Part shown: positions 16,718-35,954 of the stretch, piece by piece
How the letters are laid out: each line of letters begins with the position of its first letter
Numbering within the stretch: the first letter of the stretch is position 1
Assembly: GCA_017468935.1 (NCBI GenBank)
Contig: JAFUHJ010000212.1
Location: 1-36,265 of the forward strand
Direction of reading: 5' to 3'
DNA length: 36,265 nt
Source of the DNA: Candidatus Methanomethylophilaceae archaeon
Lineage (GTDB): Archaea; Thermoplasmatota; Thermoplasmata; Methanomassiliicoccales; Methanomethylophilaceae
The notes under the pieces: model-generated
Databases searched by the model: none
Told to the model about the DNA's origin: nothing
Seen by the model: the letters and a program-made list of their open reading frames with translations, nothing else
Position numbers and translations under genes: made by a program

Positions 16718-17053
16718 ATGGGGAAGAGAGGTCCGAAATCCGGGTACACCCACATGTCCTGCCCCAATCACGAGTGCACGTTCTACGGTGTGACGGGGGA
16801 GGGCAACGTGGTCTCCAACGGCACATACAGGATACAATCGGGTATCGTAAGGAAGTTCATCTGCAAGGAGTGCGGAAGGACCTTCAACAGCAGGACCGGG
16901 ACCATCATGCAGGGGCTTCATACCCCATCCAACAAGGTCGAGGAGTGCATCAGCTTCCTGGACATCGGACTGGGGATCAGGGCGACCGGGAGACTGACCG
17001 ATGTCAGCAAGGGCACGGTGAAAAGATGGTCCGACCGCAGAAACAGATTATGA
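16718..17053 (+). CDS. Solo IS1-type transposase zinc-ribbon/HTH protein, possibly domesticated or a remnant
   Basis: The 111-residue product has a four-cysteine zinc ribbon (Cys15, Cys20, Cys49, Cys52: SCPNHEC and ICKECGRTF), followed by RTGTIMQGLHTP and an HTH-like stretch near residues 80-108 (GIRATGRLTDVSKGTVKRW). This is the N-terminal, DNA-binding half of IS1-like transposases. The DDE catalytic half is absent: the frame ends at TGA and the next 100 bp is the AT-rich glnN promoter, with no out-of-frame remainder. ATG 16718 lies 4 nt after pyrG with GGAG upstream, so it is positioned as a second gene of the pyrG transcript. Either a decayed insertion sequence or a DNA-binding regulator is possible; I favour the latter weakly because the frame is intact. 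Confidence 0.65.
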   Translation: MGKRGPKSGYTHMSCPNHECTFYGVTGEGNVVSNGTYRIQSGIVRKFICKECGRTFNSRTGTIMQGLHTPSNKVEECISFLDIGLGIRATGRLTDVSKGTVKRWSDRRNRL

Positions 17054-28163: not shown

Positions 28164-28226
28164 ATCTCCCCATTGTTCCTGACGAGCGAAAGCTATGTTC
28201 AAATAGTTGTTATTATATGGAGAATC

Positions 28227-28829
28227 ATGATTTACACCGGGGAGATGATCATTGACACGTACTCGTTCCACGAGGAAGAGTACTCCAATCCGCGCATGAA
28301 GTTGAGCAGGGAGGTCAAGGCAGGGAAGTATATCAGGCTCAAGAGGGACCTGTATGTATCGGACAAGGATATTCCAAGTATTGCGCTGGCACAAGCAATC
28401 TACGGTCCTTCATACATATCATTCGATTATGCGCTGTCGTATTACGGTATGATACCGGAACATCCATACAACATATCATGTGCTTCATTCAACAAGCGCA
28501 GGGATAAGGTATTCAAGACAGATATTTGCTCCTATTATTATACAGATGTTCCTGCAAAGGTATTCCCCGAGGATGTCACCTGTATGTCTATCGACGGGTA
28601 TGCATTCAACATGGCCTCCATGGAGAAGGCCCTCTGTGATAAGCTGTACAAGATCAGCCCGGTCTCCGGGATGAACGATCTAGAAGAGCTTCTTCTGGAC
28701 GATATGAGGTTGGAAGAGGATATGCTCTTTACACTGGATACGAACAGGATAAGGGAATTGAGCGAAGGCTACAGATGCAAGAACGTATCAATGCTATCTG
28801 ACTACCTGGGTTCGGAGGTGACCATATGA
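28227..28829 (+). CDS. AbiEi-type antitoxin / transcriptional regulator
   Basis: The 200-residue protein has the AbiEi outline: an N-terminal DNA-binding region with REVKAGKYIRLKRDLYV, then a PSYISFDYALSYYGMIP helix, a central beta region (CASFNKRRDKVF, SYYYTDVP) and MASMEKALCDKLY. AbiEi proteins neutralise AbiEii toxins and repress their own operon. ATG 28227 has GGAG five bases upstream. However, the TATA-like TTATTATATGG (28210-28220) is 31 nt before a second in-frame ATG at 28245, so a leaderless start there is equally possible. The stop overlaps the toxin start as ATGA. Confidence 0.75.
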   Translation: MIYTGEMIIDTYSFHEEEYSNPRMKLSREVKAGKYIRLKRDLYVSDKDIPSIALAQAIYGPSYISFDYALSYYGMIPEHPYNISCASFNKRRDKVFKTDICSYYYTDVPAKVFPEDVTCMSIDGYAFNMASMEKALCDKLYKISPVSGMNDLEELLLDDMRLEEDMLFTLDTNRIRELSEGYRCKNVSMLSDYLGSEVTI

Positions 28830-29698
28830 AACTACTGGAATCGATCGTCACCGAGCATCCCAAGAATCCGGTGGATGCAGTGAATCTTGCCAGACAGTAT
28901 CTCCAAGAGATAGTTCTCTGCGGATTGTATCGCAGCAATTTCTTCAACTATGCGGCATTCCAGGGAGGCACCTCGCTCAGGATATTCCACGACCTGGACA
29001 GGTTCTCGGAGGATCTGGATTTCTGTGTGGTAGAGGAAGGGCATAAGGTGGACCTCGAGAAGATATCGGGTTATCTGAAGGATGAGATCATGTCCTATGG
29101 TCTTGAATTCAACATTCAGATCAGGGATGTAGAAGGAGGGAACATCTGCGGTTTCCGTATCAAGGGCAATACAAGGGATCTGCTCCAGGCCATGGGTTTT
29201 CCCGAATCGACGTTGATGCTGATACATCCCAAGGCCCTGACCGATATCAAGATCGATATTGATAAGGAGACGCCCAAGGGATACAAGGTCGAGCATGTTT
29301 TCAAGTCTTATCCTTTCCAATATGGTGCCACAATCATGGATTATCCAACCCTGTTTGCGGGCAAGACCTCCGCAGTGATCACACGTCATTGGAAGAACCG
29401 TGTGAAGGGTCGTGACCTTTATGATTTCGAATGGTACATAGGCCAGAATATCCCAGTGAACATGCGTTTCTTAGAGAGCAATCTGGTGAGGGAGGGGCTC
29501 ATCAAGGAATCGGAATTCAACAGGGAAGTTCTTCTGGAACTATTGGAGGACCGTTTCAGGGTCATCGATTACAACAGTGCTCTGGAGGATATCAGTCTAT
29601 TCGTTCCTTCTGATAAAGTCCCTGAGAACTGGAGCCCCGAACACTTCATAGAAGTCTCTAAGAGGATTCAGATAGACGATGGGCATCGATATCGGTAA
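28826..29698 (+). CDS. AbiEii-type nucleotidyltransferase toxin
   Basis: The 290-residue protein has the AbiEii/MNT-fold active site: FQGGTSLR at residues 45-52 (GG-T/S motif) followed by DRFSEDLDF at 58-66 with the metal-binding aspartates. Further on, KIDIDKETP gives a third acidic strand and KTSAVITRHWKNRVKGRDLYDF is the conserved helical segment of this family. Such toxins transfer nucleotides, in some members to tRNA acceptor ends, and serve in phage defence. All key residues are present, so the toxin should be active. The start overlaps the antitoxin stop, with GAGGTGA upstream. This is the only called gene in the window ending in TAA. Confidence 0.85.
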   Translation: MKLLESIVTEHPKNPVDAVNLARQYLQEIVLCGLYRSNFFNYAAFQGGTSLRIFHDLDRFSEDLDFCVVEEGHKVDLEKISGYLKDEIMSYGLEFNIQIRDVEGGNICGFRIKGNTRDLLQAMGFPESTLMLIHPKALTDIKIDIDKETPKGYKVEHVFKSYPFQYGATIMDYPTLFAGKTSAVITRHWKNRVKGRDLYDFEWYIGQNIPVNMRFLESNLVREGLIKESEFNREVLLELLEDRFRVIDYNSALEDISLFVPSDKVPENWSPEHFIEVSKRIQIDDGHRYR

Positions 29699-32835: not shown

Positions 32836-34065
32836 TCAGAACAGTTTTTCCTTTTTGCTCTCTTCAGACGCGAATCCGTAGCTGGCGTACTTCCTACCGA
32901 TGAGGAATATGGCGGCGTACTCGGGTGCGGTGGTCTCTCCGCTGAGCTCGAAGTGCTGTCCCTTCATGTCAAGGGACATGTCCTTCCTCATGGTGATCTT
33001 CACCTCTTCGTCGCTGTATTCGTCCGGTACGGCCATCTGCAGGGGATCGAAATCGGTGAGTTCCGAACGTGTGATGGGGGTTACCCTCAGGCCGCTCTTC
33101 CCGTGGATGGATCCCGGGAGACGGATTAGTCTCTTGATGTCCGCCGTGACGGGTTCGTCCACCTCCCCGGATAGGCGGGGAGCCATGTCCTCCTTCATGA
33201 CCTTCACGAGAAGATTCTGAGTGGACTGGCTCAGCATGGCCATGGTGTTCTTCTCGAACAGGAGTCCCCTTGTCTTCTTGAGCTCCTCCTGTGCCTTGTA
33301 GAGGGTCGTCGATTGGCTGCCCTTGATGCTCGGGTATTCCTTCTTGAAATCCTTCACATCCCCGTCGCAGAGGTCGTTGACGACATCCATGAGGGAGTTC
33401 CTCATCATCAGCTTCCATCCTCCCGAGTCCGCGGAGGGAATGAGACGGTCCTTCGCTATGTTGGTGCGGACCCCGTTGCCCGTGGCCACCTGGGATGTCG
33501 CCACCCTGTTGTAGGGAAAGACCCAGTCTATGTTGAGACCGGAACCCGTGATGAAGTCAACGAGCTCCCTCCTCTCCGGTGATCCCAGGCCCATGATGTC
33601 GGGAGTCCTCACGTGTGCGTGGTATCCCCTTCCTCCCGAGAACGTTATGTGGATCTGGTCCTCCTGGAATCCCAGGTTGTCCATCAGGAACCTGTCCACC
33701 AGGCGCATCATCTGCGAGCGGATCTCGATGAGCATCTCCGCATAGGTCATGTTCCCGGCACCCTCAAGGTGGTCGGCGTCAAGATCGAAGATGAGCTCTG
33801 CACCCATCCAGCCTTTCTCGTCCATGGTAGGGGCATCGGGTCTGCGGTAGTATGAGGTGGAATAGTAACTGTGTGACGGCACCTGTCCCGCCATGAACCT
33901 GTGCAGTTCCGCCGAGTTGCCGAAGGCCATGTGCCTTTGGACATATGTCTTGTCGAAGAACATGAATCCGAACTCCCTGCGGGTGAACCTGTCCGGCAAT
34001 GACGGCGTGTTCGCCTTGTAGTATTTCCTGAACGCCTTCAGGAGGAAGCGTTGGTTCGAATCCAT
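32836..34065 (-). CDS. priS: DNA primase catalytic subunit PriS
   Basis: This 409-residue protein is the polymerising subunit of the archaeal primase. The catalytic aspartates are in ELIFDLDADH near residue 90, and ITFSGGRGYHAHVRTP supplies the nucleotide-binding serine and histidine. RLIRLPGSIHGKSGLRV marks the conserved C-terminal part. The first residues (QRFLLKAFRKYY) and RREFGFMFFD are typical. ATG 34065 follows a GTG that is a possible start. No ribosome binding site exists, and a TATA-like box is centred about 31 nt upstream. It shares its upstream element with priL, coding for its partner 25 kb away. Confidence 0.93.
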   Translation of the reverse strand: MDSNQRFLLKAFRKYYKANTPSLPDRFTRREFGFMFFDKTYVQRHMAFGNSAELHRFMAGQVPSHSYYSTSYYRRPDAPTMDEKGWMGAELIFDLDADHLEGAGNMTYAEMLIEIRSQMMRLVDRFLMDNLGFQEDQIHITFSGGRGYHAHVRTPDIMGLGSPERRELVDFITGSGLNIDWVFPYNRVATSQVATGNGVRTNIAKDRLIPSADSGGWKLMMRNSLMDVVNDLCDGDVKDFKKEYPSIKGSQSTTLYKAQEELKKTRGLLFEKNTMAMLSQSTQNLLVKVMKEDMAPRLSGEVDEPVTADIKRLIRLPGSIHGKSGLRVTPITRSELTDFDPLQMAVPDEYSDEEVKITMRKDMSLDMKGQHFELSGETTAPEYAAIFLIGRKYASYGFASEESKKEKLF

Positions 34066-34090
34066 CACGATGACAATCTACGATTGTTTT

Positions 34091-34118: not shown

Positions 34119-34159
34119 TCGGCAGGGAACGATTATATGTCGATCAGGATGGATGAATC

Positions 34160-34360
34160 GCAGAAGGTTATTGGGATATGGCCGGGGAGATCAATGGGTG
34201 ACGCTCTCCCCGGCCTACCCAAGTGGATAATGGATGGCGATTCTTTAGCGTGACCCCTTGCGTCCGGAGTGTTCGGACATGAGTTCAATCCCCGTCTTGC
34301 ATCCGAAGTATATGAACGGTCACCCAGATATATCGGAGATGTGGGAAACTGTTTCCACAA
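34160..34360 (+). ncRNA. Candidate structured non-coding RNA, family unknown
   Basis: The 372-bp gap between priS and the phosphatase gene (34069-34440) holds no convincing protein gene but strong secondary structure. A TATA-like GATTATATG (34131-34139) would start transcription near 34160. Stem 1 is TTGGG/CCCAA plus an uninterrupted 11-bp GGCCGGGGAGA/TCTCCCCGGCC (about 34171-34221). Stem 2 is GTGACC/GGTCAC (34250-34255, 34318-34323) closing a domain with hairpin GTCCG-N7-CGGAC and the near-repeats CTTGCGTCCGGAG and CTTGCATCCGAAG. Stem 3 is TGTGGGAAA/TTTCCACA (34339-34358), a possible terminator. I do not recognise SRP RNA, RNase P RNA or a tRNA. A 38-codon frame (34137-34253) overlaps stem 1 and is the alternative. 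Confidence 0.3.
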
Positions 34361-34405
34361 TTACTGACAATCCTTAACACCTTAGATATCCGGGCCCTGG
34401 TATGG

Positions 34406-34412
34406 TTTTATC
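34406..34412 (+). promoter_or_regulatory. TATA-like box of the histidine phosphatase gene
   Basis: TTTTATC is centred about 32 nt before ATG 34441, with no strong ribosome binding site between. This supports the downstream ATG as the start and a leaderless or near-leaderless mRNA. Confidence 0.35.
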
Positions 34413-34440
34413 GTTGCTTCCACATACATCCGTGATTAGG

Positions 34441-35028
34441 ATGCTTTATATCGTACGCCACGGACAGACCGACCTCAACAGCAGGAACGTCCTGCAGGGT
34501 CGCAGCGACCATCCGCTGAATCCCAAGGGGGAGGAGCAGGCCAGGGAGATCGGTGACGTCCTTTCGGATGTAAGATTCGACCGTGTGTTCTCCAGTCCGC
34601 TTAAGCGTGCGGTGCGCACGGCGGAGATCATCGCCCCTTATGCGCCGATGACGATCGACGAGCGTCTGATCGAGATGGAATACGGCCCTTACGAGGGGCT
34701 CGGGTTGGATTCCCTTCCGGCGGAGGTGCTGGAGTTCTTCAGCGATTTCGTCAACAACAGCGCTCCGAAGGGGATGGAACCGCTGCCTGATATCGTGTCC
34801 CGTGCGGGTTCCTTCATCGAGGAAAGATGCAGGACCGACGAGGACATCCTGATCTCCACACACGCTATAGCGATGAAGGGGATATTGGAATACCTCACCC
34901 CGGACTCCAACGGCAGCTACTGGTCCAAGTACATTGGGAACTGTTCGGTGTACACCGCCGAGTACAGGGACCGCGGGTTCACGGTACCGAAGGAATTGGT
35001 ACGTGATTCTTACCAGAACCGACTCTGA
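34441..35028 (+). CDS. Histidine phosphatase family protein (phosphoglycerate mutase-like)
   Basis: The 195-residue protein has the branch 1 histidine phosphatase motif YIVRHGQTDLN with the phospho-accepting histidine. It is followed by LQGRSDHPLNPKGEEQA, the second arginine region SSPLKRAVRTAEII, MEYGPYEGL with the proton-donor glutamate, and the second catalytic histidine in LISTHAIAMKG. It could be a cofactor-dependent phosphoglycerate mutase, a cobalamin-pathway phosphatase or a broad phosphatase; motifs alone do not decide. ATG 34441 is used instead of upstream starts because the conserved region begins at once and the TATA box is placed for it. Confidence 0.88.
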   Translation: MLYIVRHGQTDLNSRNVLQGRSDHPLNPKGEEQAREIGDVLSDVRFDRVFSSPLKRAVRTAEIIAPYAPMTIDERLIEMEYGPYEGLGLDSLPAEVLEFFSDFVNNSAPKGMEPLPDIVSRAGSFIEERCRTDEDILISTHAIAMKGILEYLTPDSNGSYWSKYIGNCSVYTAEYRDRGFTVPKELVRDSYQNRL

Positions 35029-35069: not shown

Positions 35070-35954
35070 ATGGCAGATAAATTCGATCAGTTGGTCATCA
35101 AGGCATCCGATGGGGATGCGGAGGCTCAGTGCGAGCTAGCGAACTACTATTATGACATCTTCGATGAGCACTTCGATCCGGAACTCGCCGCGAAATGGTA
35201 TCTGAAATCTGCCGAGCAGGGCAATGCCGAAGCAGAGTTCTGCATCGCAAGGATGTACTCATGGGGAGACGGTGTGGAAGCATCCTCCGAAAAGGCTGTG
35301 GAGTGGTTCAATAAGGCCGCGAAACAGGGACACACCGATGCTATGTGCGACCTTGCGAGCATGTACCTTTACGATCCCGAGGTCAGGAAGTCCAAGAAGA
35401 AGGCCATCCAGCTCTACGAGAAGGCAGCGGACCTCGGCAACTCCAACGCCCAGTACTATCTCGGTCTCCTCTATCTCGACGGGGAGTTCGTGGAGCAGTC
35501 GTACGAGACCGCGTTGAAGCTGTTCAAGAAGGCAGCGGAGCAGGACAACCCCTATGCACAGTTCGATCTCGGAGAGATGTACTTCACCGGAATCGGAGCG
35601 AAGAAATCCAAGAAGACCGCCTTCAAGTGGTACCTCAAGGCTGCAAAGGCCGACCACGCACTGGCACAGTATGCTGTTGCCACCATGTGCCTCGAAGGAA
35701 AGGGCACCAAGCAGGATTACAAGGAGGCCTTCAAGTGGATGAAGGAGGCCGCTGAGCAGGGAGTCACCAGCGCGATGTACGACCTCGCCCTGATGTACCA
35801 TTACGGTACCGGTGTGAAGAAGTCCAACAAGGAGGCCTTCAAGTGGATGAGGTTCGTCGCGGACGATCTCTTCGAGGCAGAGGACGAATTCGAGTTCGAT
35901 GAGGGTTTCGACGAGGCCCCTGACGAGATCGAGGTCGAGCCGGAGGACGATTGA
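35070..35954 (+). CDS. Sel1-repeat (TPR-like) protein with acidic tail
   Basis: The 294-residue cytoplasmic protein is built from about seven ~36-residue Sel1-like repeats of the form A-x-x-x-LG-x-M/L-Y-x-x-G-x-G-x-x-x-x-x-x-x-A-x-x-W-x-x-KAA-x-x-G. Examples are YLKSAEQGNAEAEF, FNKAAKQGHTDAM and MKEAAEQGVTSAM. The last ~30 residues are almost wholly Asp/Glu with Phe (EDEFEFDEGFDEAPDEIE), likely disordered. Such proteins scaffold other proteins; the partner is unknown. There is no signal peptide. Codon use is strongly biased, suggesting good expression from the strong TATA box. A perfect hairpin follows, shared with the convergent gene. Confidence 0.88.
   Translation: MADKFDQLVIKASDGDAEAQCELANYYYDIFDEHFDPELAAKWYLKSAEQGNAEAEFCIARMYSWGDGVEASSEKAVEWFNKAAKQGHTDAMCDLASMYLYDPEVRKSKKKAIQLYEKAADLGNSNAQYYLGLLYLDGEFVEQSYETALKLFKKAAEQDNPYAQFDLGEMYFTGIGAKKSKKTAFKWYLKAAKADHALAQYAVATMCLEGKGTKQDYKEAFKWMKEAAEQGVTSAMYDLALMYHYGTGVKKSNKEAFKWMRFVADDLFEAEDEFEFDEGFDEAPDEIEVEPEDD

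Follow-up and report, generated by a model that had tools for sequence, protein, structure and literature searches.

A candidate pseudoknotted RNA gene beside priS in a rumen-type methanogenic archaeon, with homologs in relatives

The locus between priS and a histidine phosphatase gene

The window analysed here is a stretch of 36,265 nt from a Candidatus Methanomethylophilaceae archaeon (contig JAFUHJ010000212.1, positions 1 to 36,265). Near its right end priS lies on the minus strand (32836-34068; DNA_primase_S), followed on the plus strand by a histidine phosphatase gene, which starts at 34402 or 34441 and ends at 35028, and by a Sel1-repeat gene (35070-35954). Comparison with related genomes indicates that the gap between priS and the phosphatase gene of this rumen-type methane-making archaeon holds a real and previously undescribed RNA gene of about 130 nt. 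In the open-access literature searched, no small RNA of this order of gut and rumen methanogens was described, and archaeal intergenic RNAs of known structure or target are very few (PMC5867862).

The first-pass annotation had proposed a new structured RNA at this position, read from the plus strand and reaching 34360. The RNA itself gains support from compensatory changes in relatives and from the lack of a matching Rfam family; the plus strand is probably wrong, and conservation of the RNA proper stops at about 34293. We place the gene (about 128-135 nt, minus strand) at 34159-34293, based on a match of a covariance model (R2) to 34159-34299, on the conserved part of the RNA proper in the homolog comparison (about 34159-34293) and on paired changes described below (12/30 pairs changed on both sides). 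We propose that the first nucleotide of the RNA lies near 34286-34293 and the last near 34159-34163. A hairpin at 34341-34359 (GTGGGAAACTGTTTCCAC), formerly counted as the last domain of the RNA, is present in this genome but is absent from the related genome G003 and not conserved; with the RNA gene read on the minus strand, this hairpin falls upstream of it.

Read on the minus strand, the RNA would open with a short unpaired 5' end, GAACUCA (34280-34286), which appears in the alignment as GAACUCA, GUUAUCA, CAACUCA and GAACUCA. It is followed by a hairpin of five base pairs, P3, with the sequence GUCCG-(AACACUC)-CGGAC (34262-34278); alignment, pair counts and a pattern search agree that its stem and the CACUC of its loop are invariant. 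The previously proposed second closed domain contains this hairpin (GTCCG/CGGAC), which is the most conserved piece of all. Downstream of P3 a linker would carry the first strand of a pseudoknot, strand A (GGGUCACGC, 34248-34256), and an invariant unpaired segment CAUCCA (34231-34236; alignment columns 72-77). Then comes a long GC-rich hairpin, P1/P1a, whose loop would pair back with the linker. It consists of the P1a 5' arm UUGGG (34218-34222), the P1 5' arm (GGCCGGGGAGA, 34205-34215), the loop with pseudoknot strand B (GCGUCACCC, 34196-34204), the P1 3' arm (UCUCCCCGGCC, 34180-34190) and the P1a 3' arm CCCAA (34171-34175). The perfect 11-bp stem noticed at the outset is thus P1, an exact inverted repeat (34180-34190/34205-34215), and its 5-bp extension, likewise exact (TTGGG 34171-34175/CCCAA 34218-34222) and recovered by folding, is P1a. 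The RNA would end in a pyrimidine-rich tail, AACCUUC (34163-34169; CUCUUCUUC in G003 and G018), which we propose as the terminator; tracts of the same kind occur after many of this genome's tRNA genes.

Homologs within one genus

When 41 genomes were searched at the nucleotide level, G003 proved to have a stretch of 72% identity upstream of its priS gene, and G009 and G018 gave short matches. When these loci were read, the order of elements proved to be the same as in the present genome (G000). A pattern search (GTCCGGAGTG..CGGAC) of 147 genomes of the order gave 17 matches and added G042 as a carrier; 12 of the 17 resemble coding sequence and lack the other elements of the RNA. The RNA is therefore known from G000 and four other species of the genus, as a single copy in each and at three genomic locations. 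These five carriers provide four distinct sequences, G018 and G042 being counted as one.

A covariance model built from the four distinct sequences matched the five carriers and nothing else that was convincing in the order. With looser filters on 31 genomes of the genus, the model did not find the RNA in the 26 others. At the level of the phylum, where 390 genomes were scanned, the second model, R2, gave no further convincing RNA; the matches listed did not include G009, which had probably not been drawn for that scan. Carriers scored E-values of about 1e-17 to 1e-24, which are not independent evidence because those sequences built the models. Weak model matches in G001, G007, G013, G020, G024, G041, G046, G060 and G134 proved by eye to be P3-like pieces only, and no diverged copy adjoining priS or the Sel1 gene was found in the non-carriers. 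Viral contigs and GTDB contigs gave, besides the known G009 and G018 records, no more than weak matches, at or below about 15 bits. The RNA is missing from the near relatives G007, G012, G024 and G022. A lineage-restricted gene, with carriers from one genus, is the best reading of this distribution. In a priS tree one branch, with 75/85 support and present in 78% of bootstrap trees, has all five carriers on the same side, so that a single origin of the RNA would be the simplest reading.

Structure and covariation

From this genome alone the case for an RNA would be weak, and it is the comparison of homologs that carries it. The folding energy of the plus-strand stretch originally pointed out is unremarkable (z -1.5), 11 of 200 shuffles being as good; folding alone therefore shows no more than chance. 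The minus-strand folds of all four sequences are stabler than their shuffle means (z -1.9 to -3.0).

We aligned the four distinct sequences, all from one genus, by hand (alignment A3) and counted 30 proposed pairs in four helices. Of the cells, 89.7% were paired; 12 of the 30 pairs and 15 cells were changed on both sides. The covariation score was 0.383, compared with 0.056-0.117 when partners were slid; the slid controls had 1-3 pairs changed on both sides and none of 500 shuffles reached the observed values. The changes on both sides fell in P1 (five pairs), P1a (three of four pairs) and the pseudoknot (four pairs). The stem of P3 does not vary in any sequence and is thus neutral as evidence of covariation. 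Compensatory changes in relatives, which the first-pass annotation had suggested looking for, are accordingly present, and the comparison supports the covarying helices P1 and P1a together with the pseudoknot.

Two results argue that the pairing between the loop of the long hairpin and the linker was not simply fitted. Of three MAFFT alignments made without guidance, two led RNAalifold to join these strands as well. In a duplex test the two strands paired better than shuffled ones in three of the four sequences, the fraction of shuffles as good being 0.002 for G000, 0.023 for G018 and 0.047 for G003, but a weak 0.20 for G009. The folded shape, pseudoknot included, thus appears to be kept by matched base changes in the four relatives, even where the RNA sits at other genomic places; four sequences are a small sample. 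Two further pairings were rejected. Single folds suggested another stem in the 5' leader, around P3, but it differs in register between the sequences, and a perfect 8-bp complement (34195-34202/34319-34326) is not kept in G003.

The earlier judgement that the region encodes no convincing protein holds: the 38-codon frame at 34137-34253 is not found in the homologs, among which there is no shared or conserved open frame.

Strand, promoter and terminator

The RNA is probably transcribed from the minus strand, since the fixed promoter spacing, the shared upstream element and the tRNA-like pyrimidine tail lie there. A putative TATA box (TTCATATA, 34309-34316) precedes GAACTCA, and its start is 30 nt away in each of the four distinct homologs; the most AT-rich minus-strand 9-mer common to the four (TTCATATAC, TTTATATAT, TCTAATATT and TTATTATAT) lies exactly at -30 from GAACTCA. 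The TATA scores of the individual sequences are modest (2.9-5.0). This position agrees with 30 tRNA promoters of the genome, whose T-rich columns or TATA element begin at about -33. Further upstream, at about -85, lies the element ATTGTCAGTAATTGT (34357-34371), which is common to G003, at the same locus, and G018/G042, at a different locus, with a weakly similar sequence in G009. The sequence TTGTCAGT is shared at about this distance by G000, G003 and G018/G042, the last of which are independently placed; it thus occurs at two of the three locations. At the far end the RNA of G003 and G018 has CTCTTCTTC, and such tracts follow tRNA genes here. The RNA would then be made from its own archaeal promoter, formed by the TATA box at 34309-34316 and the upstream element at 34357-34371, and the transcript would run from about 34286-34293 down to 34159 and stop in the pyrimidine tract.

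That the same structured RNA is instead read from the plus strand, starting from the TATA-like box at 34134, seems rather unlikely. In this genome alone the box is a strong TATA/BRE-like match (score 8.4). Its distance to the stem, however, varies between about 47, 41 and 21 nt, and it is absent from the fourth sequence, G009, where the preceding gene ends at that place; this speaks against the plus-strand box as the promoter of the RNA. The 3' side on this strand has no shared terminator, whereas the spacing of the minus-side promoter is fixed in all four sequences. Wobble pairs leave the strand open: 105 of 117 cells are paired if the RNA is read as minus and 106 of 117 if read as plus. G-U pairs within the pseudoknot slightly favour plus (33 versus 30 of 37 cells), but the nested helices slightly favour minus (75 versus 73 of 80). 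The corrected strand shows where the transcript should be sought.

Genomic context and relocation

In G000 and G003 the RNA lies upstream of priS and runs toward it. The G009 copy is convergent with a plus-strand gene, whose end it faces, and is flanked on the opposite side by a Sel1-repeat ortholog, which G000 and G003 have there too. In G018 and G042 the RNA lies between an MTAP-type phosphorylase gene and an aminopeptidase gene and runs toward the latter. In G003, G007, G009 and G024 these two genes are split by a short gap without the RNA. The names given to the flanking genes of G009 and G018 (MTAP-type phosphorylase, aminopeptidase, zinc-ribbon protein) were assigned by inspecting the protein sequences rather than through a family search. 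Given the differing gene orders and the RNA-less gap in other genomes, the RNA is evidently not the leader of one gene and appears to have relocated at least once, along with its promoter and upstream element. The spacing of the TATA box, fixed in three gene contexts, is sequence evidence for a promoter of its own and for independence from the neighbouring genes.

The locus might instead be a DNA element and no RNA gene: a small site, mobile or used in recombination, with hairpins that are conserved as DNA. Three locations among five genomes would fit such an element, as would an 8-bp direct repeat (TGACAATC) on both flanks of the gene (34071-34078 and 34365-34372). The repeat is not on both sides in G003, however, and is probably due to chance. 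There is one copy per genome, no terminal inverted repeats or transposase were seen beside it (terminal repeats and transposase were likewise not seen at the G018 insert), promoter-like elements move together with it, and double-stranded DNA offers no easy reason for a pseudoknot to be conserved. We consider a DNA element improbable.

Very improbable, too, is a cis-acting leader, whether riboswitch or attenuator, belonging to priS or to the respective downstream gene. The minus-strand RNA does point to priS in G000 and G003 and to the aminopeptidase gene in G018 and G042. Across the carriers, however, the downstream gene differs (three contexts), and in G009 it is convergent. Moreover, most priS genes of the genus lack such an RNA upstream, the pyrimidine tail precedes the gene, and priS has its own TATA-like site past the RNA (score 6.9).

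Two observations concern the genes on the far side of the RNA. The histidine phosphatase gene (34402-35028) separates the RNA from the Sel1 gene here, while in G003 the Sel1 gene adjoins directly; the phosphatase gene is probably a gain in this genome. Among 31 genomes of the genus, only eight have a match to the Sel1-repeat protein at E <1e-60, and the RNA is present in five of these eight.

Relation to known RNAs and possible function

In a search of Rfam, as first suggested, nothing in the window reached the gathering threshold, and the RNA of the homologs was not matched either. The best sub-threshold match at the locus was to RT-12 RNA (RF03016; 28.8 bits, gathering threshold 44.2). It lies on the plus strand, covers mainly the GC-rich hairpin and does not recur in the homologs, and was judged to be chance. 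Like archaeal RNase P RNA, SRP RNA and the C/D and H/ACA guides, the RNA would be a structured archaeal non-coding RNA; unlike them it has no Rfam match at threshold. Although its size and stem-loop layout are within the range of guide RNAs, it can hardly be a diverged guide (C/D or H/ACA) or housekeeping RNA, given the lack of Rfam matches, the lack of a conserved C box RUGAUGA or D box CUGA at fixed places on either strand, the lack of an ACA (ANA) three bases from the 3' end of a hairpin unit shared by the four sequences (with inferred RNA ends), and the presence of RNase P RNA (RF00373, about 200 bits) elsewhere in all five genomes.

A closer parallel is sRNA154 of Methanosarcina mazei, likewise a free-standing archaeal RNA from an intergenic region, with two stem-loops and conservation within a single lineage; the likeness drawn here is one of layout, and we do not claim the present RNA as a member. 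Loop 2 of sRNA154 bears an anti-RBS sequence (reviewed in PMC5867862), and the CACUC loop described here might act in the same way. Unlike in sRNA154, a pseudoknot ties the loop of the long hairpin to the linker.

The invariant unpaired CACUC of the P3 loop is complementary to GAGUG or GGAGUG, a ribosome-binding motif, and the invariant unpaired CAUCCA of the linker to UGGAUG, a start-codon motif. Because of these complementarities and the anti-RBS loop of sRNA154, regulation in trans is the function that we tentatively put first, a protein-binding or other role being the main alternative. As a trans-acting regulator the RNA would have its body fixed by the pseudoknot, which would expose CACUC and CAUCCA; the exposed segments would mask or stabilise target mRNAs at translation starts, much as in M. 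mazei.

Taken jointly, the sequence data are compatible with a self-standing minus-strand gene for a small RNA, with its own promoter, an end in a pyrimidine tract and, as the most plausible role, regulation in trans, a composite reading on which our judgement is evenly poised. It would go considerably further, and is at present speculative, to propose a new class of archaeal regulatory RNA, a mobile cassette of promoter, RNA and operator in which the pseudoknot switches access to the anti-ribosome-binding segments. Comparative support for the pseudoknot, a likely promoter and known relatives make the RNA directly testable.

Other features of the window

An overlapping two-gene unit on the plus strand (28173-29698) is likely to be a type IV toxin-antitoxin pair. 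Its second protein is AbiEii (PF08843, E 1.1e-21); the first has no Pfam match and occupies the usual place of the AbiEi antitoxin. A short protein with cysteine pairs and no Pfam match is encoded at 16718-17053 (plus strand); we take it to resemble the N-terminal part of an insertion-sequence transposase, of which it is possibly a remnant.
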